IMG/VR virus record: IMGVR_UViG_3300043437_000785 | Span: 1 to 28,662 of that record | DNA from: a virus | DNA: 28,662 nt | Strand: one strand, 5' to 3' | Part shown: piece after piece, positions 2 to 28,662 of the stretch | Layout of the letters: the number at the start of each line of letters is the position of its first letter | Position numbering within the stretch: the first letter of the stretch is position 1 | The notes under the pieces: generated by a model | Seen by the model: the letters and a program-made list of their open reading frames with translations, nothing else | The model's database searches: none | What the model was told of the DNA's origin: nothing | Made by a program: the position numbers and the translations under genes

Positions 2-3000
2 GATTTAATTGAAAAAAGTTATAATAAACTTAAAAATCCAGAAAACCATCCAGAATTAAAAAGTAATAAATTAGCTCAAGAAAGTTTTAAAGAATGGGTA
101 AAAGCTTTAGATAAATATCCTTTAGCTTTTAAAGATATAATGTTAAAACATGCTATTAAACAATTAAACCCTCAAAGAAAATCTAAATACGTATTACAAT
201 TAAGTGATGTAGCTTTAACTAATACTTATGGTTTAGTGATGAATAAACCACATGAACTTAACAGAATAGGTAAATTATATGATTCAGAAGTGTTAAAAAC
301 TGTTTCTGATGCTGTAGGACATGAACCTTCTGCAAGTGGTAAAGGATATTGGGTACATATTCCAAGAACTGAAAATATAAAACAAAAAAATAGAAGTTAT
401 GTGATATTAGCTAAAAAATATTCACAATCTGAAGGGTATTATAATTTATACGATTTAGAGGGTAAAACTCCAATTAACTATAAAGTTATTGACAAGTATG
501 ATAATACATTTTCTAAAATTTTTAAAACAAAAGAAGAAGCAGATAATTTTATAAAAACAAATAGTAATAAAATAGATAACTCTGCACAATTTAAAGTAAA
601 TGTAGAACTTCTTAGAAAACTATCTCCTTCTACTTGGTGTACTGCTTCGGGAATGGCTTCTCATTATGTAGAAAACTATGATAACTATTTATTAATAGTT
701 GATGGTATTACTGTTGCTGGAATTGAAGCTTATCCAGGAGTAGATAATTCTGAAAAAATACAAGACCTTGAAAATAAAATTAAAAATTTAGAAAATAATG
801 AGTCTTATACAATAGTAGATAGAAATAAAATTAAAGGGCAACCATCTATTTTCACTACTACTATAAAACCATTTATGGGGGTTAAATATCAACTTTCAGC
901 AAACAGTAGAGAAGAAATTCTTAACAAAGAAAAAAACACTATTAAAAGAATAAATGAAGATTTACAAACAGAATTAAAGTATTTAAAAATTAAAATACAA
1001 AACCTATTAGAAGAATCTAAATTAAGAAAAGTAAAAGAAGTTACCTCAAGAGCTAATAATGGAACTTCTTCAATAGATCATTATGATGATATCTTAGCTT
1101 TCTTTGAAAAACATAACTTAGATACTAACAATAATTCTTTACAAAGAGCTAAAAATGCTAAAGATTTAGGTAAAAAAGATAGTGAAGTAATACCTGATTT
1201 TGATCCTGAATATGAAAATTGGCAGGATTATTATGAACCAGATAGATATCTCGATGATCAATTAGCTCAAGAAACAGCATATATTGAAACATTAAGAAAT
1301 ATTACTAAAGTAGAAGATGCTTTAAATCCACAAATAGTTCATAGTCTAGATGCTAGATATTTTGATTCATTACCTGAAATTATTAGAAATAATAAAGAAG
1401 TCGCCGAAAAAGGAGTTAACGTAGATCCACATAATATAACATATTTAAATGAAAATCTTCCTTTTTATTTAGATTTAGCTAAAGTAGTTATGAATAGGGA
1501 ATATGCTATGTATGAGTACTTGCCTGATAATATTAAACAAAATTCAGAAATACAGGCAATATATGCTAAAGGTATAAGAGAAAACCAAGAAAGAACAGAA
1601 GCAGAAAGAATAAGAATTGCAAATTTAACTCCAGAAGAACTACTAGCTGAAAACGATGATTTACCTTTTTCTAAAACTAATGAAAATCTAATACAAGGTT
1701 ATTATGATGCTAATAATGATAAAGTAGTAGTAATAGCTAATAATACTCCATTAGATGAAGCATCTAAAGTAGGTATTCATGAAGTAGCTCATAGAGGTAT
1801 GCTTAGAATGGCTAAAGAATTAGGAGGAGTACAAGAATTAGGAAAAGTTTTATTTTCTGCTGAAGATCAATTAATGAAAAAATTACCTGAACTTTTAAAA
1901 AGAACAGGACATACTTCTTTAGAAAATTTAATGTTGGATTATGGTTTTACTAATCAAAGTGAAGAAGGTAAAATAAAATTATTAATGGAATTAGCAGCTA
2001 GATGGGCTGAAACATTAATAGATAAACCAAAACCTTCTTGGTGGAAAGAATTAATAGGTAAGATTAGTGATTGGGTTAAAAAGTTTACAAATATAACACT
2101 AACTGAGAAAGAGACTAATGAACTTATAGGGGGTTTTGTTAAATACGGTACTCAAAATATAACAAGTACTCAACCATTATCCCCAGAAGAAACATCTATA
2201 CAAGAAGAAACAGATATTATAGCTAAAGAAATACAAGATAAGCTAGATAAAGATAATAAACTAAAAGAAAATATCGTTAATTTAGTAGATGATTACTTTG
2301 ATAGAATGTCTAATCATCTTAACAATTTATTAAAAAATAAAAATTATAGTAGATTAAGAAATATATTTACAGGAGAACATGGAGTACTTAAAATTACTTC
2401 TATAACTGATTTACTTAGAAGAACAAAAGAATTACAAGAATCTATAGAAACAGATAAAAAAAGAGTTAGTGCAATAGCTAAATCCATCAAACAAATAGAT
2501 TATCTTTCAGATTTCATATTAGAAGATGTTCAATCTATAGTAGAAAGTAGTGAAGAAAGTCCTGTGGTTTTGATAAAAACCTTACAATCTTACTTAAATG
2601 TTATAAATGATTGGAAAGTATTAGTTGCTGATACTCTAATTTTAAGTAAAAGCAAATCTCCTTTAAGAAATATTTTGGCTCAATTATCTGGCAAAATAGA
2701 AGATATAGAAAAATTAATATCTCAAAATAATGAATCTGCTATTGTAGATAGTCTGAAGGATATTCTTACTCCTCAAGGAAAAGAATATATGAATGTACTA
2801 GAAGATTACATAAAAGATAAAGAAAAGAAATTATCTTTAACTACAAACCCTAAACTAAAAGAATCTCTTAAAAGAGACATTAAAGGTATAAAAGAAATTC
2901 AAGAGAAATATAACTTTGAAGAAGGTAAAAACATAATAGGTTTCCTAAAAGGATTACCTGGTTATGGAGATTCTGGATTTTTCAACTCTATAGTAGAGAA

Positions 3001-6000
3001 ATTCTCTAATTCTTCTGACCCTATCATATCTTCTTTTAGAAAATATGTTCATGATATTCAAAATTCTACAGCTACTAAATCTATACAATGGAGTGATAAA
3101 TTCATAAAAGAAGTTCTTCCTTTAGTAACTCAAGCTGAAAGATTTGATCCTAAAAAGGTAAATGAAAGAATATCTTTTGAAGATACTATCTTAAACTCTA
3201 AAGGAGAGAAAGAAAAAATTATAACTCTTTTAAATGAATGGAAAGATTATAGATATGATTATCAATCTCTTGTAAAAGAAGAACAAGAACTTAAAAATGA
3301 ATATTTATCAACCAAAACTAAAGAAAATCAAGATAATTATGAAAAAGCTAGACTAAAAAGACAAGAATTTGAAAAAAATGTATTATATCAAGAAAATTCT
3401 CCTAAGTACTATGATAAGTTCTCACTTTTAAAAGATGATGTAGGTTTATCTCTCAAAGAAGATATAGATAATATATTTGACCAAATTAATGAAATACAAG
3501 AAAAATATTACTCTAGAGAAGAAGAATTAACTCCTGAAGACTTAGAAACTATAGATGGTCTTTGGAGAGAGTATAAATTATTAGGTAATGTAAACTATGC
3601 TAATGGAACCCCTAAAGAAGATTTTCAACTAAATAAAGCTCTTAGAATGAGAGAAATTAGAGCTTTAAATCAAGAAGTTTACAACTTTACTGATAATTGG
3701 GTAATGTTTGAAAAAGCTAAAGAAAATTACATAGAGTTTTTACACACTACTTTAAACTTACAAAAAGATTCTCCAGAATTTATACAATTATTTAAAGATT
3801 GGGAAGATAAAAATACTAGAGTGGTAGTAACAGATCAATACTATAAAGATGTAGAAAATCTTTTCTTAGAATTACAATATTTACTTTCTAAAACTAAGAA
3901 TCCAGAATTAGAAGAAGATATTCAAAAACAATATAAAATTGTTAAAGACTTAATTTATGGTAACAAAGATGAAGATAATCAACCTATAGGAACACTTTTT
4001 CAACCTAAAGCCTCTGAAAGAATTAAAGCTGCTCAAGAAGCAATAGAAGAATTAAGATTTAAAGCAAAACAATTAGGGAATCTTACTACAGAACAATATG
4101 ATAGATTACAAGAATTAGCTTCATATTTAGAAGATAATAGTTTAACTCCAGAGGAACAGATAGAAATGAATGAGTTAGAACAATTACAACGAATTCCTAA
4201 TTTATCTAAAACTCAATCTGAAACTCTTCAAAATCTTTTAGAAAAACTAGCTGAAATACAATCTAAACTTCCTACAGAATATTATGTAGAAGTTTTTAAT
4301 AATATAGCTTCTCAGTATGGTATTACTATACAAGATGATGGAACTTTAAAAGAATCTGAAATAGATATATTAAAAAGTCCAGAATTAAACTCACTCCTAA
4401 TACATTCAGATTTTAAAGAATGGTTTGAAAAAAATCATTACCAAGCTAGAGAATGGAACAAAGGTTTAAAAGAATATGAAGATGTTTGGAAAAGAACTCC
4501 TCAATGGACTATAACAAAACCTAATGACCAAAAATACTATGAAGTAAGACCTTCTAGAAAATACTCTAAAAGAGAAATTAAACCTGAATACAAAACAGGT
4601 TATAACCCTCAAACTAAAGAAGTAGAATTAAAAGTAGGTGTACATATAGACAACAAAGGTAACTTTCTTCCTGATCCTTCTAAAGAAGGTTCTAAACAAT
4701 ACAAGAATGAAAAATATCATCAACTCATCAACTCTAAATCTACAGATGATGAAAGATTAGTAAAGTTATTAAACATTTACAAAGAACACTTACTAGAAGC
4801 TCAAGAAGAGCAATCTTATCAAAATAAATTATACTTGGATATTCCTGGAGTAGTAAAGTCCTCTAGAGAATCCCTTCTTTCTACCTTAAAAAGATTAATA
4901 TCCGACCCTAAAAATCTTTCCAAGGAAGTAATTGCTTATCTGAAAGGATTATGGGAAAAAATAGTATCTTTTGATTACAACGATATTGATTATGAAGATC
5001 AAGTAAGTAAATTTCAAAGAGATTTTACTAAAATACCTATGAAGTTTAAAAATGCTTTACCCTCAGACATAGCTTCTTATGACTTCTTTAAATCTATATC
5101 TAAGTACTATTACTCAGCAGAGCTACATAATTCCCTCAAAGAAGCTCTTCCTTTAGCAAAAGCTATAGTAAAAGAATCTGATAAAGCCTCTATACAACAT
5201 AACACTAAAAATTCTAATAGAAATAGAGCTATCAGAAGAATATTTGAAGCTGATTTTGAAGGTAAGACTTCAGGTATAGAATTAGGAGATAATCATGCAT
5301 TAAAACAATTAGTAGGAACCACTTTAAGAACTTTAACAGGCTCTGCTGCTTGGATGTATATGAAATTAAGTCCTACTTCTACTATTGCCAATTTGGTAGA
5401 AGCAAGAATTTCTAACCTAATAAAAGCATTTGGTACTAATATGTTTACTCCTAGAGACCTAGCTTTAGCAAATAAATCTTTACATTCTACTTATTTATGG
5501 AAATGGATACTAGATTATATTAAAAATGATCCTACAAATCTTTCTTTAGAGACTCAATTATTTCAACTTTTCTCTCCAATAATAGGAGAATCCACCATAG
5601 AAAATTTAGGAGAATCTTACAGTAATTCTACTATTGCAAATCTAGCTACTCTACAGCCTTTACAACATAACAGAGCTTTAAGTGAGATATATGCTCAATC
5701 TTCTATGTGGTTAGCTATAATGAAAGCTATCAAAGTAGAACAAATTACTCCTCAAGGTAAAATAGACTTAAACCTAGAAGATGCTTATGAATTAGGACCT
5801 AACAATACTATAAAATTAAAAGAAGGTATTTCAAAAGATTGGGATTTTCAAGGTCAAAAGTTTTTAGATATAAAAACTAAAACTCAAAGACTACTAGAAG
5901 AAACCCATGGTGCTTCCTCTCAAGATGATAAATCTTACCTAGATGCTTCTTTTACTGCTAATTTTTTATTATTTTTAAAGAAATTCCTTATAGAAAAAGT

Positions 6001-6655
6001 CTCAGATGCTTTTGCTACAAATATTTCTTTTGATAGAAAAACATTCAGACTTAAAAATGATGTTGCATTACCTTCTTTTAACCTTCATAAAGGTGCTAGA
6101 ATAGGATATACTTCTCAAACTATAGTAAGTATTATTAAAGTTTTGAATGATAAAATTCTTTATAATACTATTAACAAACCTACTAAATTAGAACAACAAG
6201 CTATTTTTCAACAAATAGCTAAATTAACTAGTATAATATTACCTATTGTATTAATTAAGTTAATTTGGGGTTACGGAGGAGATGATGATAAAGAAAAGAA
6301 AAAAATACTTAAAAATTTATCAAATCTAGATAATAATCTACTTTACTTTATGAAAAGAATGTCTGTAGAACAAGCTTCTATTTATAAAATTAAAACTTAT
6401 AAAGAATACTTAACAGATATTACTTCTTTAGAAGGTTTTAGTCAATGGAAAAAAACTTTAGAATATTTATTATCAGGAGAAGAATATGAAAATACACAAA
6501 GATCTCCTTCTGGAACTATAATTATTAGAGAAGGTGATAAAAAATGGAAAATTTACTTTAGAAAAGTCATAGGTATAAAAGGTGCTCAAGACTTTTTAAA
6601 AGACCCTGATTATGTAATAAGAGAATATGAAAAAAATCTAAGAAGAGATAATTAA
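2..6655 (+). CDS. Giant multidomain (polyvalent-type) phage protein with zincin motif, 5'-truncated by window edge
   Basis: The frame is open from base 2 without a stop, so the gene starts left of the window; the ATG at 140 is in frame but probably internal. About 2217 residues are visible, ending at TAA 6653-6655. Visible parts in order: a TWCTA motif (nt 632-646) followed by a YLLIVDG strand; a charged, coiled-coil-like stretch (nt 750-1020); short helical repeats weakly resembling DUF4116 (about nt 1290-1600); a zincin-type HEVAH (nt 1778-1792) with ELAARWAE about 70 residues later, a possible third zinc ligand; a very long Lys/Glu-rich helical middle; and a helical C-terminal region with one strongly hydrophobic segment (nt 6224-6280) followed by GDDDKEKKK. 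Known of the class: phage and conjugative polyvalent proteins combine metallopeptidase and other domains and are often carried in the virion or delivered to the host. Inference: virion-associated or ejected protein. Its plus orientation opposes the replication block. The CDS is certain; the role is not. Confidence 0.9.
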   Translation, partial: DLIEKSYNKLKNPENHPELKSNKLAQESFKEWVKALDKYPLAFKDIMLKHAIKQLNPQRKSKYVLQLSDVALTNTYGLVMNKPHELNRIGKLYDSEVLKTVSDAVGHEPSASGKGYWVHIPRTENIKQKNRSYVILAKKYSQSEGYYNLYDLEGKTPINYKVIDKYDNTFSKIFKTKEEADNFIKTNSNKIDNSAQFKVNVELLRKLSPSTWCTASGMASHYVENYDNYLLIVDGITVAGIEAYPGVDNSEKIQDLENKIKNLENNESYTIVDRNKIKGQPSIFTTTIKPFMGVKYQLSANSREEILNKEKNTIKRINEDLQTELKYLKIKIQNLLEESKLRKVKEVTSRANNGTSSIDHYDDILAFFEKHNLDTNNNSLQRAKNAKDLGKKDSEVIPDFDPEYENWQDYYEPDRYLDDQLAQETAYIETLRNITKVEDALNPQIVHSLDARYFDSLPEIIRNNKEVAEKGVNVDPHNITYLNENLPFYLDLAKVVMNREYAMYEYLPDNIKQNSEIQAIYAKGIRENQERTEAERIRIANLTPEELLAENDDLPFSKTNENLIQGYYDANNDKVVVIANNTPLDEASKVGIHEVAHRGMLRMAKELGGVQELGKVLFSAEDQLMKKLPELLKRTGHTSLENLMLDYGFTNQSEEGKIKLLMELAARWAETLIDKPKPSWWKELIGKISDWVKKFTNITLTEKETNELIGGFVKYGTQNITSTQPLSPEETSIQEETDIIAKEIQDKLDKDNKLKENIVNLVDDYFDRMSNHLNNLLKNKNYSRLRNIFTGEHGVLKITSITDLLRRTKELQESIETDKKRVSAIAKSIKQIDYLSDFILEDVQSIVESSEESPVVLIKTLQSYLNVINDWKVLVADTLILSKSKSPLRNILAQLSGKIEDIEKLISQNNESAIVDSLKDILTPQGKEYMNVLEDYIKDKEKKLSLTTNPKLKESLKRDIKGIKEIQEKYNFEEGKNIIGFLKGLPGYGDSGFFNSIVEKFSNSSDPIISSFRKYVHDIQNSTATKSIQWSDKFIKEVLPLVTQAERFDPKKVNERISFEDTILNSKGEKEKIITLLNEWKDYRYDYQSLVKEEQELKNEYLSTKTKENQDNYEKARLKRQEFEKNVLYQENSPKYYDKFSLLKDDVGLSLKEDIDNIFDQINEIQEKYYSREEELTPEDLETIDGLWREYKLLGNVNYANGTPKEDFQLNKALRMREIRALNQEVYNFTDNWVMFEKAKENYIEFLHTTLNLQKDSPEFIQLFKDWEDKNTRVVVTDQYYKDVENLFLELQYLLSKTKNPELEEDIQKQYKIVKDLIYGNKDEDNQPIGTLFQPKASERIKAAQEAIEELRFKAKQLGNLTTEQYDRLQELASYLEDNSLTPEEQIEMNELEQLQRIPNLSKTQSETLQNLLEKLAEIQSKLPTEYYVEVFNNIASQYGITIQDDGTLKESEIDILKSPELNSLLIHSDFKEWFEKNHYQAREWNKGLKEYEDVWKRTPQWTITKPNDQKYYEVRPSRKYSKREIKPEYKTGYNPQTKEVELKVGVHIDNKGNFLPDPSKEGSKQYKNEKYHQLINSKSTDDERLVKLLNIYKEHLLEAQEEQSYQNKLYLDIPGVVKSSRESLLSTLKRLISDPKNLSKEVIAYLKGLWEKIVSFDYNDIDYEDQVSKFQRDFTKIPMKFKNALPSDIASYDFFKSISKYYYSAELHNSLKEALPLAKAIVKESDKASIQHNTKNSNRNRAIRRIFEADFEGKTSGIELGDNHALKQLVGTTLRTLTGSAAWMYMKLSPTSTIANLVEARISNLIKAFGTNMFTPRDLALANKSLHSTYLWKWILDYIKNDPTNLSLETQLFQLFSPIIGESTIENLGESYSNSTIANLATLQPLQHNRALSEIYAQSSMWLAIMKAIKVEQITPQGKIDLNLEDAYELGPNNTIKLKEGISKDWDFQGQKFLDIKTKTQRLLEETHGASSQDDKSYLDASFTANFLLFLKKFLIEKVSDAFATNISFDRKTFRLKNDVALPSFNLHKGARIGYTSQTIVSIIKVLNDKILYNTINKPTKLEQQAIFQQIAKLTSIILPIVLIKLIWGYGGDDDKEKKKILKNLSNLDNNLLYFMKRMSVEQASIYKIKTYKEYLTDITSLEGFSQWKKTLEYLLSGEEYENTQRSPSGTIIIREGDKKWKIYFRKVIGIKGAQDFLKDPDYVIREYEKNLRRDN

Positions 6656-6658
6656 ACC

Positions 6659-6895
6659 TTAATTAAAATCTAACTTATCTAATATTTCTTTTATAATACC
6701 TTCATCTTTAACTAAATTATAATATAACCTAGTAAAATCTATCTCATTGATTTCTACTAGGTTATCTTTATTTAATTCCAATTCTTCTTTACTTATATCA
6801 TAAAAAGTATATATAAACCCTTTATCTACTTTTTCAGACTTTACTAATTGAACAATTTTATCTTGTTCTATATAAATATAATATTTTACTATCAT
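6659..6895 (-). CDS. Hypothetical protein, 78 aa, convergent with the giant gene
   Basis: Not recognised. It is rich in Lys, Asp, Glu and Ile with aromatic residues (YYIYIEQDK at the N-terminus) and no signal peptide or membrane segment. Its stop lies only 3 bases from the stop of the giant plus-strand gene, and its start is about 20 bases downstream of a good Bacteroidota-type promoter on the minus strand (6914-6945). That promoter and the A-rich leader before the ATG are the main support that it is expressed. It appears to be monocistronic. Function unknown. Confidence 0.6.
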   Translation of the reverse strand: MIVKYYIYIEQDKIVQLVKSEKVDKGFIYTFYDISKEELELNKDNLVEINEIDFTRLYYNLVKDEGIIKEILDKLDFN

Positions 6896-6913
6896 TAATT
6901 TTAATTTTATTTA

Positions 6914-6945
6914 CAAATATATAACTTTTTATTTGGTTATATCAA
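6914..6945 (-). promoter_or_regulatory. Bacteroidota-type promoter for the 78-aa gene
   Basis: On the minus strand TATATTTG (plus positions 6914-6921) matches the -7 consensus TAnnTTTG. A TTG (6943-6945) lies 21 bases upstream, the position of the -33 element. The ATG at 6895 follows after a short A-rich leader. The segment AAGTTATATATTTG resembles the other two promoters found in this window. No equally good match was found on the plus strand for the divergent gene starting at 6995. Confidence 0.6.
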
Positions 6946-6994
6946 TTTTTATTATTACTTTTACAAATTATTAAACAATTAAAACAAAAAATAT

Positions 6995-7291
6995 ATGACA
7001 TCAACAGATAATCCTAGTATACCAATAAATGATGCACAAGATATACCAGAAATCTTAAATGAAGCTCCAATAGGATATGTAACTACAGATAAACTAATCA
7101 CATTACAACCTAGAGAATTTATGGCTTTACAACATTTTCTTCAAATATTTGAAGAACCTGTAGCTATAATAAATGCCATCAAAGATAGAAATATAGAAGA
7201 AAAAAATCTATTACTCTATACTGCTTCAGATCTTAACGAAGATAAAACTCTAAAAGAAGAATTCTTCACTAAAAATAATATTCAAAAATAA
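6995..7291 (+). CDS. Hypothetical protein, 98 aa
   Basis: Not recognised. It is the only short plus-strand gene in the window and shares the giant gene's orientation, from which it is separated by the minus-strand gene at 6659-6895. It starts with a Ser/Thr/Asp-rich, Pro-containing N-terminus (MTSTDNPSIPINDAQ), then a helical region around LQPREFMALQHFLQIFEE, and ends in a charged tail. The ATG follows an A-rich leader (AAACAAAAAATAT), as expected in Bacteroidota. A strong bidirectional terminator lies about 60 bases after the stop. The position next to a putative virion gene hints at a small structural or accessory protein, but nothing in the sequence proves it. Confidence 0.75.
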   Translation: MTSTDNPSIPINDAQDIPEILNEAPIGYVTTDKLITLQPREFMALQHFLQIFEEPVAIINAIKDRNIEEKNLLLYTASDLNEDKTLKEEFFTKNNIQK

Positions 7292-7348
7292 TCACTTTTT
7301 TGTTTTAATACTTTTCATGTTTTGCTGTAATTTTTAATGTTAATGAAA

Positions 7349-7380
7349 AAAAGACCTACTAAATTAATAGTAGGTCTTTT
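7349..7380. terminator. Bidirectional intrinsic terminator between convergent transcription units
   Basis: A perfect 13-bp inverted repeat AAAAGACCTACTA / TAGTAGGTCTTTT (7349-7361 and 7368-7380) encloses a 6-base loop (aattaa). It is followed by TTTTG and more T on the plus strand and by an equivalent T run on the minus strand. It lies between the plus gene ending at 7291 and the minus operon ending at 7391, so it can stop transcription from both sides. Confidence 0.9.
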
Positions 7381-7390
7381 GTTTTTTGTA

Positions 7391-7594
7391 TTATTTAAAT
7401 TGAATACTTTCTATTTCATCTAAGTCAAAATATCCTATAACTTCAGGAAAATCTTCCATAGAATTTAAGTGCATTTCCATACTTTCACTACCTGGAATTA
7501 ATTTTAAAAAATCACAACCATTTTTAGTATATGTTATTTTAAAATCTCTCCTATTTAAAACTTCACTTTTAAACTTAATAATTAATCTTCTCAT
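7391..7594 (-). CDS. Hypothetical protein, 67 aa, last gene of the accessory operon
   Basis: Not recognised. A small mixed alpha/beta-looking protein with a basic N-terminus (MRRLIIKFKSEVLNRR) and acidic C-terminal half (DLDEIESIQFK). The start is 2 bases after the TAA of the methyltransferase gene upstream, typical of the tight coupling in this block. It is the last gene before the bidirectional terminator at 7349-7380. No motif supports a function. Confidence 0.7.
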   Translation of the reverse strand: MRRLIIKFKSEVLNRRDFKITYTKNGCDFLKLIPGSESMEMHLNSMEDFPEVIGYFDLDEIESIQFK

Positions 7595-22431: not shown

Positions 22432-23271
22432 TTATTTATTTTCAACATTTTCTAATTCTTTAAAATTCCATAATTTAACTAATTTATAAGATAATTCCAT
22501 CTTTTCTTTAGCTAAATCAACATTTCCTTTCCAAGCTTTTAAAAACCCATTATATACAGCTTCTTTATATTCTTCTTCAGTCATATCTATATCTAATACT
22601 TTTTCTGCATATTTTTTACCTATTTTTGGGCTTAGATTTTCAAAATCTGTACTATCTCCTATCAATACTTGGGTCCAAAAGTTATAATTAGCTGTTTTTT
22701 CATCAATATATTGATAAAAATCTTTAGAATAGTTGTAATGGTATCCAGAAATAGTTAATAAATCTTTGTCTATTCCACAAATTAAAGCATTATCTCCTAA
22801 AGTATCTACTAATGTTTTAATTGCATCATCAGCTTCTCCTATAGGAGCTATAAAAGCATTATGTTTTTCTATAAGAATATTGTGCAAATAGTTAACTATT
22901 TCTGGAGTTTCTGGTCTATGAGTTTTATAAGAACTTAACCATTGTTTTCTTGGATTATTATTACCTTTTACACATAAATAAATGGTTTTTATAGTAAAAT
23001 ATTCTTCTATTTTGTTAAAAATTCCTAATAATTTCTCATTTAAAATACCTTCAGCTATATCAAAACCCCCATTTTTTTTAGTATAATATTCTGTAGGATT
23101 ACCAAATTCATCATTTTTAGGCTGATAACTACAAATAAAAGGTAAGCTATCAGCATCAAATACAACTACTTTTTCCTCTTTCACATTAAAATCACTTATA
23201 ATACTATTAATATTATTGTCATGTGGAATAGGTTCTATATAATCATTATTACTTTTTGTTACTAAATTCAT
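22432..23271 (-). CDS. 5'-3' exonuclease / flap endonuclease family
   Basis: A 279-aa nuclease of the T5 D15 / T4 RNase H / Pol I 5'-exonuclease family, likely removing RNA primers and flaps. Acidic metal ligands are visible in VVVFDAD (Asp39, Asp41), GEADDAI (146-150), GIDKDLL (Asp168, Asp170) and GDSTDF (Asp206, Asp209). The helix-hairpin-helix DNA-binding motif follows as LSPKIGKKYAEKVL. The segment WLSSYKTHRPE is the helical-arch/clamp region typical of the family. Acts with the ligase and helicase encoded in the same block. Confidence 0.93.
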   Translation of the reverse strand: MNLVTKSNNDYIEPIPHDNNINSIISDFNVKEEKVVVFDADSLPFICSYQPKNDEFGNPTEYYTKKNGGFDIAEGILNEKLLGIFNKIEEYFTIKTIYLCVKGNNNPRKQWLSSYKTHRPETPEIVNYLHNILIEKHNAFIAPIGEADDAIKTLVDTLGDNALICGIDKDLLTISGYHYNYSKDFYQYIDEKTANYNFWTQVLIGDSTDFENLSPKIGKKYAEKVLDIDMTEEEYKEAVYNGFLKAWKGNVDLAKEKMELSYKLVKLWNFKELENVENK

Positions 23272-23278
23272 TTTTATT

Positions 23279-23494
23279 TTATTTAATTTGTATTACTTTG
23301 TATTGAATAGGAGCTTCATATAGTCCAAAACTAATAAATTGTAATAATTGTTTATACCATTTTTTATGTGGAGTTTCTAAAACTTTAACTCTTGTTCCTC
23401 CAACATTTAATATTTCATTTTTATTAAACCAAGGTTTTTGTATAGTTAAATAAAAGTTTTCAGGTTTAATGTATCTTTCATAATTATTTTCCAT
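23279..23494 (-). CDS. Small conserved phage protein, 71 aa
   Basis: Contains the pattern VGGTRVKVLETPHKKWYKQ followed by LLQFISFGLYEAP and YKVIQIK, which I recognise as a small recurrent protein of Bacteroidota phages and elements (VLETP, KWYKQLLQF, GLY-x-AP). Function unknown. It has an amphipathic aromatic stretch that could touch a membrane, but no clear membrane segment. Overlaps the Rieske-protein gene by 11 bases. Confidence 0.85.
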   Translation of the reverse strand: MENNYERYIKPENFYLTIQKPWFNKNEILNVGGTRVKVLETPHKKWYKQLLQFISFGLYEAPIQYKVIQIK

Positions 23495-24014
23495 TATTTG
23501 TTATTAATTGTTTAGTTATAGCATCAAATTGTAAACCATGATTAGGACAAGTTATTACTCCATTAATATCAGGTTCTAAAGTTAAGTTTTGACCTCTGTG
23601 AGGACATTTACCTTTTATTATACATTTATGTTTTAGTTTAGAGTTTTTTATATAACTTACAGGAGTGGTAAATTCATTAGATTTTTTTATACATTTCATC
23701 ATCATATAGACTATTTTAGTATTTTTAGTATGTTCTAATCTAATATTACTATCTTCAAATAAATAATGTTTACTTTTTTCTCCAAATTCAAATCTATAAT
23801 CTACATGATAATGTAAGTAATTTTGTCCATTTTCTCTATCACTATGAGGTTTTTCTGAAGTAACAGGTAAATAATAAATATATTCAAATTTTTTATATGT
23901 AGGATAACCTATATTTAACTCATATAACTTTACTTGCTCTAATCTATTATAAACTTCTTTATATTCTATACAAGGGATTTTATAATAATTACCTATTGTA
24001 TATTTATCTTTCAT
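23484..24014 (-). CDS. Rieske-type [2Fe-2S] protein
   Basis: The last 45 residues carry a complete Rieske cluster-binding pattern: CPHRG (Cys137, His139), 16 residues, then CPNHG (Cys156, His159), followed by LQFDAITKQL, as in Rieske ferredoxins (C-x-H-x16-C-x2-H). The first about 130 residues are an unrecognised region rich in Tyr and His (NYLHYHVDYRF). Rieske ferredoxins pass electrons to oxygenases or reductases; here the electron partner is unknown. No partner oxygenase is visible in the window. Starts by a one-base TAATG overlap with the previous gene's stop. Function beyond cluster binding is inferred. Confidence 0.88.
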   Translation of the reverse strand: MKDKYTIGNYYKIPCIEYKEVYNRLEQVKLYELNIGYPTYKKFEYIYYLPVTSEKPHSDRENGQNYLHYHVDYRFEFGEKSKHYLFEDSNIRLEHTKNTKIVYMMMKCIKKSNEFTTPVSYIKNSKLKHKCIIKGKCPHRGQNLTLEPDINGVITCPNHGLQFDAITKQLITNNGK

Positions 24015-24313
24015 TATTTTATATTTTCTTCTATATTATAAGCATTTAAAATAGAATCTTTACTTACTGTAATAGTTACATAACCATCATCATAATTATT
24101 AGTAAAACCAGGTGTTTCATTTGTATCATTTTCTGAAACTCTCATTTCACTATTTAAAAATGCTTGTTCTAATGCTTTTTCAACATGTAAAGTAGCAAAT
24201 TTTTTTAATGCTTCTTTAAAATCTTCTTTATCTATTAAATAAGCGTAATGTCCTTCTGTTAAAGCAACATGTTCTTTATAATAGTTAAATAATTGATCTG
24301 TTGTTTGTATCAT
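24014..24313 (-). CDS. Hypothetical protein, 99 aa
   Basis: Not recognised. N-terminal helical half (DFKEALKKFATLHVEKALEQ) and a C-terminal beta-like end (DGYVTITVSKDSILNAYNIE). Its stop and the Rieske gene's start share TAATG, so the two are translationally coupled. It starts 21 bases after the radical SAM gene's stop. Confidence 0.8.
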   Translation of the reverse strand: MIQTTDQLFNYYKEHVALTEGHYAYLIDKEDFKEALKKFATLHVEKALEQAFLNSEMRVSENDTNETPGFTNNYDDGYVTITVSKDSILNAYNIEENIK

Positions 24314-24334
24314 AATAGTTTTTATGTTTTTATT

Positions 24335-25114
24335 TTAAAAAATATACCTAATATTACACCAAGGTATGATATTATTATGTAATTCTTTAAATTCATTAAT
24401 TAATTGATTTTTAAACTCCCATTGATACCTAATATTTTCTCCTCCATATTGAGATATTTTAGTTTCTTGTATTTCTGGTTTCCAAAGTAGGTTTTCTATT
24501 TCTATAGCATTTTGTTCTAAATTAATATTATGTAAGTTTTGATTATGAGTTAAAAATATAACTTCACAAGCTACTTTATCTTTATATAATACTTTCTGAT
24601 CTATTAGTTTAAATAATTCTTCATAATCTTTTTTCCAAGTATTAGTATATACAATAGGACTAAAATTAATATGTACATCCCAACCATGCTCTATAAATTT
24701 ATTAATAGCTTCAATCCTTTTCTCTATTTTAAAAGTTTTAGGTTCTAAAATATCAGACATATGTTGAGGCATTAAACTATATCTAATTCTTAGTTTTTCA
24801 TTACCATAAGGTAGTAATTGATTATTAACAAATTTAGTAGCAAAAGTAGCTTTAATATTAGGAGTTTCTGTAAAAAACTTTAATACTTTATCCCAATTAT
24901 AATCTTTCCAATGATAATTAAGATCTACATCACATCCCACATCAAAAGTCCAATACTTTAAATCTGTTTGATTAGGGATTTTAGTACCTAATTTTAAAGA
25001 ATGTTGTCTTATTGATTCTAATATTTCATCTACATTAGTATTAATATAAATATATTTTCTTCCAAATCTTCTAGTATAACAATAACTATTAGAACATCCA
25101 GCATTGCATCCCAT
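24335..25114 (-). CDS. Spore-photoproduct-lyase-like radical SAM protein, 5' end lost by a frameshift
   Basis: The 259-aa frame matches phage SPL-like radical SAM proteins: GCNAGC near the start, then RRFGRKYIYINTN, FDVGCDVDLN, ATFATKFV, RIRYSLMPQ, GWDVHINFSPIVY, VIFLTHNQN and the C-terminus SQYGGENIRYQWEF and IPWCNIRYIF. The frame is open upstream of the ATG and encodes VSKPNFI, which belongs in the family just before GC. The expected start of the protein is found in the other frame at 25132-25218, ending PP then TAA, so a shift of one base splits the gene. In addition the Cys pattern is C-x3-C-x4-C (residues 3, 7, 12), not the CX3CX2C needed for a canonical 4Fe-4S site. Either a decaying pseudogene, a recoded gene or a sequence error. 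Confidence 0.75.
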   Translation of the reverse strand: MGCNAGCSNSYCYTRRFGRKYIYINTNVDEILESIRQHSLKLGTKIPNQTDLKYWTFDVGCDVDLNYHWKDYNWDKVLKFFTETPNIKATFATKFVNNQLLPYGNEKLRIRYSLMPQHMSDILEPKTFKIEKRIEAINKFIEHGWDVHINFSPIVYTNTWKKDYEELFKLIDQKVLYKDKVACEVIFLTHNQNLHNINLEQNAIEIENLLWKPEIQETKISQYGGENIRYQWEFKNQLINEFKELHNNIIPWCNIRYIF

Positions 25115-25131
25115 AATAAAATTTGGCTTAC

Positions 25132-25218
25132 TTACGGAGGAACAAAATCACTGCTTCTACCATTCTCTTTTATTTTAAGAGTTCTTGTAATTTGTTTTTT
25201 TAATTCTAAATCATTCAT
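25132..25218 (-). pseudogene. N-terminal fragment of the radical SAM gene in a shifted frame
   Basis: ATG 25218 to TAA 25132-25134 encodes 28 residues, MNDLELKKQITRT then IKENGRSSDFVPP. SSDFV-x-P followed by KPNFI-x-GC is the expected N-terminal region of SPL-like phage proteins, and KPNFIMGC is read in the adjacent frame at the stop. The start overlaps the endonuclease stop by 8 bases (ATGAATGA). Total 24335-25218 is 884 bases, one short of a multiple of three, in line with loss of a single base near 25135. Confidence 0.65.
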
Positions 25219-26182
25219 AATTTAAATTGTTTATTTTTGTAAAACATTCATGATGCCCTTTAAAACTTATTTTAGGTATATATCTATAAGAAATGTGTTC
25301 GATTTGTATTTTATTTTCTAATTTAGAAATATAATCAGCATCTTCATTTTGGATTATTTTTAAAATTTTATAATTATAAGGTAAAAAATCTTTTCCAGAA
25401 AATCTTTTTATTATAGGTAAAAATGTTTTACCTACTTTAAAAAATCTTTCATTTTCATTCCAACATTCAAGAATATATACTTTAAAAGAATCAAAATTTT
25501 TAGACTTTAAACCAGCTTTTTTCCAACCAGAATAACTTCTAAGATTTAAATCTTTATTTTTTAAAAAATTATTATTTGCAATAGATGCACATTTTTTACA
25601 CCCATTTCCTTTTAAATGATTAAAAGGAATTTGTTCAAAATCCCCATGAATTCTGCAAGTTATAGTTACTTTATTATAACTATTTATATAAATACATTTA
25701 TCATATTCATAAGTATCTCCATGAACATCCTTACTTCTTGTAATAAAATTTAATGCTACTTTTTTTGCTTTTTTATAGTTTTGTTTAGCACAAGTATGAC
25801 ATTTAGATCCTTTTAATAAAGAAGTTGCTTTCATTTCAAAAATACCATGTTTTTTACATATTATTTTAACTTTTGCTCTATCGTTCACATATTCAACTAA
25901 AGAATAATCATAATCATATTGTAATTTATCTACATGAATTTCTTTTAATTTATTAATAAAATATTCTGTTTTATTAATTGCTGTTTGAATAGAAGGAGTT
26001 TGATTTCGTTTTAATGAAATAAAAAATGGATTACATATTCCATATTTTGTTTTAACTAAAACTCTACTGTTTTTAGGATTATCAATAATTTCTAAATTAA
26101 AATTAGGATTTATTTTTAAAATGTCCTCTTTTAAAGTTTCTTTTGTATATTTTATATTTTTCATACTGTAAATATACAACAT
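25211..26182 (-). CDS. GIY-YIG homing-type endonuclease with Cys/His repeats
   Basis: A 323-aa putative mobile endonuclease. Two copies of a DNA-binding Cys/His module are seen: ICKKHGIFEM...GSKCHTCA (Cys109, His112, Cys128, Cys131) and TCRIHGDFEQIPFNHLKGNG-C (Cys176, His179, Cys195, Cys198), each preceded by a Y-x-Y and Y/N-rich segment, as in repeats of phage homing endonucleases. The C-terminal part is GIY-YIG-like: VYIL (235-238), FKVGKT (248-253), Arg260 and Glu289. The IPKISFKGHHECF end also fits that group. The ATG at 26182 follows an AAATAA-type leader; an alternative start is 26164 (MKNIKYTKE). It lies between two fragments that look like the same gene start. Confidence 0.88.
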   Translation of the reverse strand: MLYIYSMKNIKYTKETLKEDILKINPNFNLEIIDNPKNSRVLVKTKYGICNPFFISLKRNQTPSIQTAINKTEYFINKLKEIHVDKLQYDYDYSLVEYVNDRAKVKIICKKHGIFEMKATSLLKGSKCHTCAKQNYKKAKKVALNFITRSKDVHGDTYEYDKCIYINSYNKVTITCRIHGDFEQIPFNHLKGNGCKKCASIANNNFLKNKDLNLRSYSGWKKAGLKSKNFDSFKVYILECWNENERFFKVGKTFLPIIKRFSGKDFLPYNYKILKIIQNEDADYISKLENKIQIEHISYRYIPKISFKGHHECFTKINNLNYE

Positions 26183-26187
26183 TTTAT

Positions 26188-26274
26188 TTAAAAAACAAAA
26201 TTACAAATTACATAATCAGAACTTTCCTTACAAGCAATAGTTTTAGTCTTTTGATATTTAAGTTCTAATTGCAT
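26188..26274 (-). pseudogene. Relic resembling the start of the radical SAM gene
   Basis: ATG 26274 (TAATG with the helicase stop) to TAA 26188-26190 encodes 28 residues: MQLELKYQKTKTIACKESSD then YVICNFVF. It aligns with the fragment at 25132-25218 (M-x-LELK-x-Q-x-T-x-T, KE, SSD-F/Y-V). It fills the gap between helicase and endonuclease. Inferred to be the original gene start, cut off when the endonuclease gene arrived; an independent tiny gene is possible. Confidence 0.5.
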
Positions 26275-27407
26275 TATAGTTTTAATTCTTTTAAAGGTGT
26301 TAATTTTCTTTGTGTAAAGTAAGTATTATCTATAATAGATTTATAAGTTTCTTCAGTAGTATCTTGAACTTTAGGCATTTCTTTGAAGATTCCCACTACT
26401 GGATTAAAGGCAAGTCCAATTCTGACATCATCTGAGCCATAACTATTCTTTAATATTTTAATACTTCTATACATTTTATTACCATAAGAGTTTCTTAATT
26501 TTTCTAAATTATAACCAATAGGGTCAGGTATTTTATATCTCATTGGATCAAATAAAGCTATACATACCTCACTATCTTCTTGTGTTGATGCAGAATCTTT
26601 AAAGTCCTCTAACATAGGTTCTACATCTCCATTTTTTAATCTTATAGGGTTAGATATATCTCTGTTAAATTGAGATATTTTTACTATAGTATAACCATAA
26701 ACATCTCTAAATTTTCTAGCATCTTCTGAAGATTGATCTATAATTTCTTTTTTAGAGGATAATCTAACTTTATCTCCATTAGGATAACTTCTGGTTTCTT
26801 TCTTTTGTAAACCAATATGGTCATAAATTACTATAACATGCTCATTAGGGTCATTAGGGATATATTTATAATTATGTTCATCTATTTTTACTTTTTTACC
26901 ATTAGCTTCAGCATAAGCATCTATAGTTTTTTTAATACCCATAGGATTTTGAGGATTTTCTATAATAGTAACTACATTATTTAACATAGTATTTATATAA
27001 TCTTTGTAAGATTTTACTATTTCTAGTTCTTCAGCAGTTAATTTATTTTCTTTAGAAACCCAACCTAAAATCTTATTTACAGATATAATTTGACCTGTAT
27101 CAGTAAATATTTTTCTACTTATCCATTTAGCTATTTTGTAGTTTTTTCTTCTTTCCATAGAAAAATAGAAGATTTTTAACTTCAATCCTTTAGTATTTTT
27201 AGGAGATAAAACAAACTCATAAGGATTTAATACAAAAGCATCATCTAAAAATGTAGTTTTTCCTGAACCTGTAAAACCTCCTATTAGGTAATAAGTAGCT
27301 TTTCTTAACCCTATATGATAATTTAATCTATCAAAACCCATTGAAATAAGTTCTTTATTTAATCCTTCTGTTATTTCTTTCTCTAAATCATCAAAATAAT
27401 CTATCAT
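26274..27407 (-). CDS. DnaB-like replicative helicase (RecA-fold ATPase domain)
   Basis: A 377-aa hexameric-helicase-type ATPase, likely unwinding DNA at the phage fork. Walker A GGFTGSGKTT (43-52), then FYFSMERRKNYKIAKWISRK (about 80-99) typical of DnaB motif H1a, Walker B VIVIYDH (191-197), KISQFNRDI (about 243-251, motif 3 with the sensor Gln) and EDFKDSASTQEDSEV (arginine-finger/motif 4 region). It is shorter than bacterial DnaB (about 450-470 aa) because the N-terminal primase-binding domain is missing or reduced to about 35 residues. The start overlaps the stop of the 197-aa gene (TAATG), so the two are coupled and may work together. Confidence 0.92.
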   Translation of the reverse strand: MIDYFDDLEKEITEGLNKELISMGFDRLNYHIGLRKATYYLIGGFTGSGKTTFLDDAFVLNPYEFVLSPKNTKGLKLKIFYFSMERRKNYKIAKWISRKIFTDTGQIISVNKILGWVSKENKLTAEELEIVKSYKDYINTMLNNVVTIIENPQNPMGIKKTIDAYAEANGKKVKIDEHNYKYIPNDPNEHVIVIYDHIGLQKKETRSYPNGDKVRLSSKKEIIDQSSEDARKFRDVYGYTIVKISQFNRDISNPIRLKNGDVEPMLEDFKDSASTQEDSEVCIALFDPMRYKIPDPIGYNLEKLRNSYGNKMYRSIKILKNSYGSDDVRIGLAFNPVVGIFKEMPKVQDTTEETYKSIIDNTYFTQRKLTPLKELKL

Positions 27408-28000
27408 TATATATCAAATGTGTTTATTGGTGTACTTGTATTGTGATTAGCTTGAATAGTTGTATTTTCTTTTCCATCATAATTCTCATAATCATCTACT
27501 AACATACTCTTACTATCTTTACTTATATAGTATCCTAAGAGAGGAATATATTTAAAATTAGCTTTTACAGCTTTTCTTATGTGATTTAAGAGTATAGTTT
27601 CTATTTTATTGTAGTCTTTTAGTTTATATTTTAGAACTACTTTTTTAAGTTTATCTGTGAAATCTTTTAAATTTGGAAAAAAAGAATATTTACCATCTAC
27701 TCTATATTGTCTTTCTCCTGTAAGTTTAAACAATTCATCTTGAAGTTTTTTATGTAAAAGAGGATAATTAATACCTTTTGTATCATTTTTACCTTCTATT
27801 TCCTTTAAAATTTCATAACCTTTAGTAGTTAATTCTTCAGTATTTGTTAGAAAACCTTCAGTTTTCATACCTACTATAATATCTAAATATTCTTCTCTAA
27901 AGTTAAAAAGAGCATTATCTTCTACTAATTTTAATAGAAGATAATACCTTACAGATAAACCTAGTTCTTTTATTTTTAATAAAGTTTCTAAGTTGTACAT
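27407..28000 (-). CDS. Putative winged-helix replication accessory protein, 197 aa
   Basis: Family not identified. The N-terminal about 60 residues (LGLSVRYYLLLKLVEDNAL, EEYLDIIVGMKTEGFL, TEELTTKGYEIL) look like a winged helix: helix, helix, recognition helix and a TTKG wing that ends in a helix, as in many phage replisome proteins. The C-terminal part is basic and helical (LKDFTDKLKKVVLKYKLKDY, HIRKAVKANFKYIPLLGYYI). It is coupled to the DnaB-like helicase by a one-base TAATG overlap, so a role as loader, organiser or DNA-binding partner is inferred. No Walker motif, so it is not a DnaC-type ATPase. Confidence 0.75.
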   Translation of the reverse strand: MYNLETLLKIKELGLSVRYYLLLKLVEDNALFNFREEYLDIIVGMKTEGFLTNTEELTTKGYEILKEIEGKNDTKGINYPLLHKKLQDELFKLTGERQYRVDGKYSFFPNLKDFTDKLKKVVLKYKLKDYNKIETILLNHIRKAVKANFKYIPLLGYYISKDSKSMLVDDYENYDGKENTTIQANHNTSTPINTFDI

Positions 28001-28034
28001 AGTTTTGTTTTTTTTTAATTATAATTATTAAAAA

Positions 28035-28068
28035 ACCCTCTTATACTTTTTAAATTATATAAGAGGGT
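28035..28068 (-). terminator. Intrinsic terminator after the right-edge gene
   Basis: ACCCTCTTATA and TATAAGAGGGT (28035-28045 and 28058-28068) form a perfect 11-bp stem with a 12-base loop. On the minus strand it is followed by TTTTTTAAT, a good T tract. It lies about 25 bases after the stop of the gene at 28093 and before the helicase operon, separating the two. No TAnnTTTG promoter is obvious between it and 28000. Confidence 0.88.
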
Positions 28069-28092
28069 CTAAGACTTAATATAATTTATTTA

Positions 28093-28662
28093 CTAATAAT
28101 CATCACTTGTACTACTAGCTAAAACTGCTCCAGAAGCTAAAAAGTTCTTTGAAGAGTCATAAATATCTATTTCTTGTGGTAAGAAATAGCTACTTTTTCT
28201 AAATCCATTAACTTCATCCATAGTGTCTATTAAAAATGTTTCTACTGGAGTAATTTTTCTAGCTTTGCTTTCTTTAGCTTGTATAAGGGAAGCTAATTTA
28301 GTAGGGTCTAGATTATAAGCTTTTACATTTTTAAACATATATCCAGGTAAAAATGCTCTGTTATAAATAGTTTGTACAGGAGTTCCATCATCTTTTAATT
28401 TAACTCCATAAGAACATACTACAGTTTTCTCATTTCCACTAACATCAAATCTAATGTCCATTAGAGTTTTTCTTAGTGATTTAAAGTTTCCTTTTAGCAT
28501 AGTAGGTATATCTAATAAAAGATTTAAATCTTGACTATATATATCTAAATTAAACATATTAATCATAAAGTTATATACAGCAACTTCTCCTTCTAAAGCT
28601 TTTCTAAATACTTTATTTCCTAAGTTATCTACTTCTTCTGGTTTAGCTCCAGCATTATATTT
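28093..28662 (-). CDS. Unidentified protein, C-terminal part, truncated by window edge
   Basis: The frame stays open to the right edge (32 codons before the ATG at 28566), so at least 189 residues are the C-terminal part of a longer protein. It includes EGEVAVYNFMINMFNLDIYS, a Leu-rich LLLDIPTMLKGNFKSLRKTL, a segment YNRAFLPGYMFKNVKAYNL and an acidic, Ser-rich C-terminal tail (ASSTSDDY). It has its own strong terminator and lies upstream of the helicase, a pattern expected of an abundant protein such as a single-strand DNA-binding protein with an acidic tail. That assignment is inference only; I do not recognise a defining motif. The stop is TAG. Confidence 0.8.
   Translation of the reverse strand, partial: KYNAGAKPEEVDNLGNKVFRKALEGEVAVYNFMINMFNLDIYSQDLNLLLDIPTMLKGNFKSLRKTLMDIRFDVSGNEKTVVCSYGVKLKDDGTPVQTIYNRAFLPGYMFKNVKAYNLDPTKLASLIQAKESKARKITPVETFLIDTMDEVNGFRKSSYFLPQEIDIYDSSKNFLASGAVLASSTSDDY

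Follow-up and report, generated by a model that had tools for sequence, protein, structure and literature searches.

The window analyzed in this study comprises positions 1 to 28,662 of record IMGVR_UViG_3300043437_000785 from an uncultured phage, with a length of 28,662 nucleotides (nt). The locus of interest consists of a gene for a DnaB-like replicative helicase, a gene for a homing-type endonuclease, and a gene for a spore-photoproduct-lyase-like (SPL) radical SAM protein, which is a probable DNA-repair gene. The endonuclease gene is flanked by two short frames, here termed the outer and the inner copy. All elements are located on the minus strand, as follows.

26274 to 27407, minus strand: DnaB-like replicative helicase gene (Pfam DnaB_C, 4.9e-8; phrog_19, 1.7e-17)
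26188 to 26274, minus strand: outer frame of 28 amino acids (aa), MQLELKYQKTKTIACKESSDYVICNFVF
26239 to 26274, minus strand: native start of the SPL gene, first 36 nt, MQLELKYQKTKT (identical to the endonuclease-free contigs L001 to L004, L008, and L009 in the alignment)
26188 to 26238, minus strand: foreign tail of the outer relic, IACKESSDYVICNFVF followed by a stop (absent from empty alleles; TIACKE shared with L144 and L146; shuffle test)
26168 to 26199, minus strand: candidate Bacteroidota-type promoter, TTTG-N19-TATATTTAC (single match in the window)
25211 to 26182, minus strand: open reading frame of the homing-type endonuclease, 323 aa (phrog_681 endonuclease, 2.9e-33; family with T5orf172 and DUF723; presence/absence polymorphism)
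25589 to 25858, minus strand: two zinc-finger (treble-clef-like) modules, presumed to bind DNA (conserved C/H; DUF723 or DUF4379 in five to six of 11 family members)
25229 to 25483, minus strand: C-terminal T5orf172/GIY-YIG-type nuclease domain (invariant Y, K-x-G, R, E, and P...E; T5orf172 in 6 of 11 members)
25132 to 25218, minus strand: inner copy, a foreign SPL start of 28 aa, MNDLELKKQITRTLKIKENGRSSDFVPP (overlaps the endonuclease stop in ATGAATGA)
25127 to 25137, minus strand: excess of 11 nt, CCGTAAGTAAG, with a placement ambiguous by 2 nt (shifts the frame and puts a TAA after the inner copy)
25127 to 26238, minus strand: whole incoming segment of 1,112 bp, taking the place of 42 bp in the empty allele (blastn of L001 to L004 against the window; base-by-base differences)
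24335 to 25114, minus strand: remainder of the SPL-like radical SAM gene (Pfam SPL, 5.5e-21; TIGR03886, 3.5e-78)

The endonuclease could start at the ATG at position 26182 or at that at 26164. The TTTG-N19-TATATTTAC motif is found just upstream, with 0.12 matches expected by chance in the window, and possibly acts as the promoter of the endonuclease gene. The nearest helicases are those of crAss-like and Bacteroidota phages, with identities below 60%, and a Bacteroidota host is therefore likely. The same replication region also encodes a predicted protein (positions 23484 to 24014, minus strand) with a Rieske-like pattern, CPHRGQNL...CPNHGLQFD, which is unusual for such a region in phages.

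An earlier note on this sequence described the endonuclease gene as lying between two related 28-codon frames, the outer one coupled to the helicase gene by TAATG and the inner one to the stop of the endonuclease gene. Both frames and both couplings are present, the TAA of the helicase gene overlapping the ATG of the outer copy. The similarity between the copies exceeded that of all 20,000 composition shuffles, and each copy also resembled the N terminus of SPL from endonuclease-free relatives more closely than any of 20,000 shuffles.

In IMG/VR, the SPL protein was found at 98 to 100% identity in nine contigs, and the protein in the window is 100% identical to that in L001 to L004. Six contigs (L001 to L004, L008, and L009) carry no endonuclease gene. 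At their helicase-SPL junction, for which the earlier note had suggested a search, the helicase stop overlaps one intact SPL start (TAATG; MQLELKYQKTKTLNIKENGRSSDWVTPNFIMGC), and the ATG at the helicase TAA opens the full SPL frame, MQLELKYQKTKTLNIKENGRSSDWVTPNFIMGCNAGC. The other three (L005 to L007) contain the endonuclease gene with exactly the junctions and the frameshift of the window. Compared with L001 to L004, the window differs by the single replacement of 42 bp by 1,112 bp. The flanks of the window and its closest empty relatives are identical for more than 1 kb on either side of the insert; against L001, no differences were found over about 1.9 kb upstream and about 1 to 1.1 kb downstream, where that contig ends. 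Because of these identical flanks, we regard the insertion as recent. The N terminus of the empty allele shares the motif KTKTLxIKENGRSSDWVTPNFIMGC with the 74% identical SPL protein of L057, which indicates that the empty state is ancestral.

The empty alleles also bear on whether the outer frame is an independent small gene, as its coupling to the helicase gene might suggest. The same start codon opens the full SPL gene in endonuclease-free relatives, the outer frame is homologous to SPL N termini, and a conserved stand-alone gene of this kind, which would have contradicted the earlier note, did not occur in the relatives examined. We thus give this explanation practically no credence. An assembly chimera or a sequencing error might be suspected in metagenomic contigs in which divergent neighbors coexist. 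However, junctions and frameshift are the same in four contigs from different samples and in at least three flank backgrounds, which makes an artifact very improbable; since three other contigs have the identical junction, the frameshift is not the error of one assembly.

Regarding these backgrounds, the variants in L005 are of the L008 type up to about 1.4 kb upstream of the insert; thereafter, its sequence is of the window type. The multiple backgrounds fit spread by homing and also ordinary recombination, and since the four occupied contigs go back to one insertion event, they do not distinguish between the two. Over positions 22463 to 28662, alignments of the window with L001 to L009 consist of blocks without any difference that alternate with blocks differing by several percent or more, a mosaic that shows frequent recombination among related phages.

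The origin of the two ends of the insert was deduced from comparison with these and more distant SPL genes. According to the earlier note, the outer copy is a relic of the local gene start and the inner copy a diverged SPL start that arrived with the endonuclease gene. The latter agrees with the comparison of occupied and empty alleles: the SPL start in the inner copy is a third version, with L057, L001, and L058 as nearest relatives. The former holds for the first 36 nt (12 codons), over which outer copy and empty allele are identical; the remaining 16 codons, IACKESSDYVICNFV, are missing from the empty allele and are foreign. Because the flanks are perfectly identical, the 45 changed nt of this stub came with the insert and not through later decay. 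The tail can be aligned to SPL N termini with one gap of three codons (NGR). Its best match was L144 at the DNA level (MFELKHQKTKTIACKENGRSGDYTSGHFVLGC; identity at 13 of the first 14 nt of the tail) and L146 at the protein level, with TIACKE common to both. As its first half matches L144 and its second half is closer to L057, its exact source is probably an unsampled lineage. The tail is the decayed N terminus of another SPL lineage, with L144 and L146 as nearest relatives.

Both ends of the insert are therefore foreign SPL sequence, so the arrangement of stub, endonuclease gene, and new start probably formed elsewhere and moved in as a whole. Most simply, the segment came from a donor with the two pieces already on either side of the endonuclease gene; in that case, an insertion into a different SPL lineage must have occurred at least once before. 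Searches with degenerate patterns (IKENGRSSD and NGRSSDFVPP) and profiles of SPL and the endonuclease revealed no donor whose inner start belongs to an intact gene; they returned only the known occupied and empty contigs and more distant relatives. Bacterial genomes did not yield a donor, and GenBank phages gave no match to the region by megablast or to SPL by tblastn.

The earlier note further proposed that the insertion may explain the frameshift at the junction. The frameshift indeed lies there, and it can now be described more precisely as an 11-nt excess at the right-hand junction that is the same in all four occupied alleles. The inner ATG lies 104 nt from the ATG in the SPL frame (104 mod 3 = 2), and without the excess the distance to the SPL frame would be a multiple of three. 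In all 146 SPL N termini from the fetched loci, which include many close relatives and are not 146 independent cases, there are exactly five residues between the D of GRSxD and the F of (N/S)F. The occupied junction reads GTT CCT CCG TAA GTA AGC CAA ATT... and has the 11 additional nt within this fixed spacing. In the SPL frame, the first ATG encodes the methionine of MGCNAGC and lies right at the radical-SAM cysteine motif. A model of the empty-allele protein, with a mean pLDDT of 92.7, shows structure for residues 1 to 30 and matched SPL crystal structures with a TM score of 0.83. Since the excess breaks the fixed spacing, the first ATG lies at MGCNAGC, and the modeled N terminus is structured, loss or reduction of SPL function is expected in the occupied lineage. 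Full-length SPL has probably been lost there, and the excess most likely leaves at best a truncated protein starting at MGCNAGC.

Two other explanations were considered. In the first, ribosomes hop from the CCG preceding the stop to the CCA ahead of NFIMGC and bypass TAAGTAAG, so that the 11 nt would be tolerated and the insert would protect the occupied allele, as proposed for T4 gene 60 and MobA. The take-off codon CCG, an adjacent TAA, and the landing codon CCA are present, the product SSDFVPP-NFIMGC would keep the five-residue spacing, and there is precedent for bypassing (PMC5009743, PMC3014915). In contrast, no stable RNA structure was predicted (z about 0), support for a nascent-peptide signal is missing, CCG and CCA match at two bases only, and paired proline codons may arise by chance or through microhomology. 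Bypassing is therefore improbable in our view. No slippery heptamer for −1 frameshifting was seen by eye between the TGA of the SPL frame and the inner TAA. The second explanation is a group I or group II intron or an intein that joins the outer and the SPL parts by splicing, as the endonuclease gene sits within a formerly single coding sequence. Yet no Rfam match was obtained, even at permissive thresholds, and no group I ribozyme core was recognized; for an intein, frame continuity is missing and an inner SPL start inside the insert would be senseless. We consider splicing hardly credible.

To characterize the endonuclease, 11 family members were aligned (alignment A4). The residues Y230, K243, G245, R254, E283, P297, and E306 in the C-terminal part are invariant, and the C/H columns of the zinc fingers are conserved. 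Pfam matches among the members comprised T5orf172 (6/11), DUF723 (6/11), DUF4379 (5/11), and CapR (2/11). The window protein itself scores below the Pfam cutoffs for T5orf172, which its family members match (L148, for example, is above the cutoff), and it shares less than 40% identity with phage records. A fold search with a model of the endonuclease (pTM only 0.39) gave nothing significant. T5orf172 is a GIY-YIG subfamily that occurs in phage homing endonucleases with zinc-finger repeats (PMC10448857). By way of its relatives, the protein can thus be assigned, at the level of sequence, as a member with zinc-finger repeats of the T5orf172 (GIY-YIG) homing family. In addition, it is present or absent at one conserved site among close relatives. 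The relative in L148 (positions 6783 to 7415) is shorter and belongs to a distant phage, where it adjoins a DNA ligase gene and lies some 2 kb downstream of an SPL gene.

We then compared the sequences upstream and downstream of the endonuclease gene at 83 loci with relatives of the window endonuclease. The same layout was found on an A1-like DNA-transfer gene at two of them, L218 and L263, where a stub of 46 to 51 codons is followed by the endonuclease gene and then by the full A1-like gene with a different N terminus. The stubs resemble the N termini of the endonuclease-free L266 and L267 (52 to 59% identity), whereas they share only 32 to 36% identity with the start of their own downstream gene. 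The inner starts of L218 and L263 resemble each other, and the two loci may descend from one insertion. Both A1-like genes (L218, positions 2815 to 6332; L263, positions 2806 to 6383) have a zinc-finger endonuclease gene with the stub immediately upstream and a second one, on the opposite strand, immediately downstream. The A1-like gene of PP540027.1 (Maribacter phage Panino; L268, positions 2495 to 4050) is annotated as two overlapping frames and is possibly another split or frameshifted target.

A further locus, L226, contains a 13-codon stub of a Ku-like gene (MASHSTGSFTIGF versus MASHSTGSFVIGF) beyond an oppositely oriented endonuclease gene (2078 to 2950, minus strand; 3010 to 3915, plus strand; 3903 to 3944), with a flanking direct repeat of 42 nt that is 86% identical. 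This case suggests a recurrence of the layout more weakly. The C-terminal nuclease parts in L218, L263, and L226, as read from their sequences, look unlike T5orf172, and the part common to these proteins is therefore the zinc-finger region. Flank repeats at two other loci were rejected as gene stubs: that of L198 turned out to be a second, tandem endonuclease gene and that of L201 a duplicated terminator-like hairpin. In L201, the two diverged hairpins (77%; positions 2904 to 2947 and 4531 to 4574) bracket an endonuclease gene downstream of a capsid-like gene, which looks as if the endonuclease gene had carried a replacement terminator. Five named GenBank phages with relatives of the endonuclease have no flanking stub.

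These loci help to judge whether the stub is accidental debris that forms no unit with the carried gene end. About 80 of the 83 related loci lack a stub, and the order helicase-endonuclease-SPL with overlapping stop and start codons is also known from free-standing endonucleases of T4 (PMC2988022). Against this stand the recurrence of the layout on other genes and the position of the left crossover, which is inside the SPL gene and not in the helicase gene, with a stub tail from the SPL of another lineage. Because of the origin of this tail, the donor probably already had a stub, and we regard accidental debris as unlikely.

Altogether, the sequences directly show the two allelic states, empty and occupied, as well as the two junctions and that the segment ends are of foreign origin, and we are confident that a free-standing T5orf172 homing endonuclease gene invaded the SPL-like gene in one segment together with its own foreign SPL 5′ end. 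The interpretation of the earlier note is supported, with three refinements: the relic is a hybrid, the frameshift is an 11-nt excess, and the layout is found in other genes, too. According to the proposed mechanism, the enzyme would cut the SPL gene near the conserved GRSSD-NF-GC codons in a coinfecting phage without the endonuclease gene. The carrier would then serve as template for repair of the break, and the recipient sequence between two short stretches common to both, AAAACT on the left and AATTTTATTATGG on the right, would be replaced. The start codon and first 12 codons of the recipient would remain as a stub behind the helicase gene, and the carried start would take over the rest of the SPL gene. 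Because the carried copy differs in its codons and, here, by 11 extra nt, the occupied allele would escape cutting. The foreign tail of the stub implies at least one insertion into another SPL lineage before arrival.

More tentatively, such loci may represent a recurrent phage cassette, in which a zinc-finger endonuclease gene and a recoded 5′ end of its target insert into a gene, restore it with an uncut start, and hop between distant lineages, leaving an N-terminal stub. Here, the 11-nt excess would add immunity, and SPL would be kept by reinitiation or ribosome hopping. The locus captures a recent endonuclease invasion among wild phages, with both empty and occupied alleles and base-exact junctions in otherwise identical genomes, in which the endonuclease rewrites the start of its target gene rather than merely interrupting it, in a layout that recurs on unrelated genes. 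If general, this would account for short orphan frames before phage genes and for abruptly diverged N termini, would constitute a natural parallel to recoded-rescue gene drives (homing drive), and would make it directly testable how such elements limit damage to host genes.

Searches of open-access papers did not yield an earlier report of a carried gene start in phages. ICP1-like, T5-like, and Vibrio phage endonucleases likewise combine a C-terminal T5orf172 domain with DUF723/CapR-like zinc-finger repeats and lie near core genes, and the window protein is a distant member of this group; a replacement gene start is not described for them in the accessible part of PMC10448857. T4 mobA in gene 60-39 and Aeh1 mobE in nrdA are further free-standing endonuclease genes that split a replication or nucleotide gene (PMC2988022, PMC3014915, PMC5009743). 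However, two coding parts result in these cases, no foreign replacement start is described, and the enzymes are of the HNH and not the GIY-YIG type. Protection of the occupied allele against cleavage has been proposed for an extra stretch in the target in T4 (PMC2988022, PMC3014915, PMC5009743), and the 11 nt possibly act likewise here; while the T4 insert of 50 nt is bypassed efficiently, bypassing of the 11 nt is hypothetical.

The nearest known case is that of fungal mitochondrial gene hybrids with a mobile endonuclease open reading frame, namely atp6 of Allomyces and atp6, atp9, cox2, and nad3 of Glomus sp. (PMC3630166). There, too, the endonuclease gene brings a foreign terminal piece of the target gene that completes the gene and leaves the native piece as a relic, the copies are diverged in DNA, and insert-free relatives exist. 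In contrast to these hybrids, the relic in the window is partly foreign, the frame is broken, and the host is a phage; the carried part is in frame with the gene core in L218 and L263 and out of frame in the window. Moreover, the fungal elements carry a C terminus with the relic downstream, whereas the phage locus carries an N terminus with a start codon and has the relic upstream, and is thus the N-terminal mirror image of the fungal hybrids.
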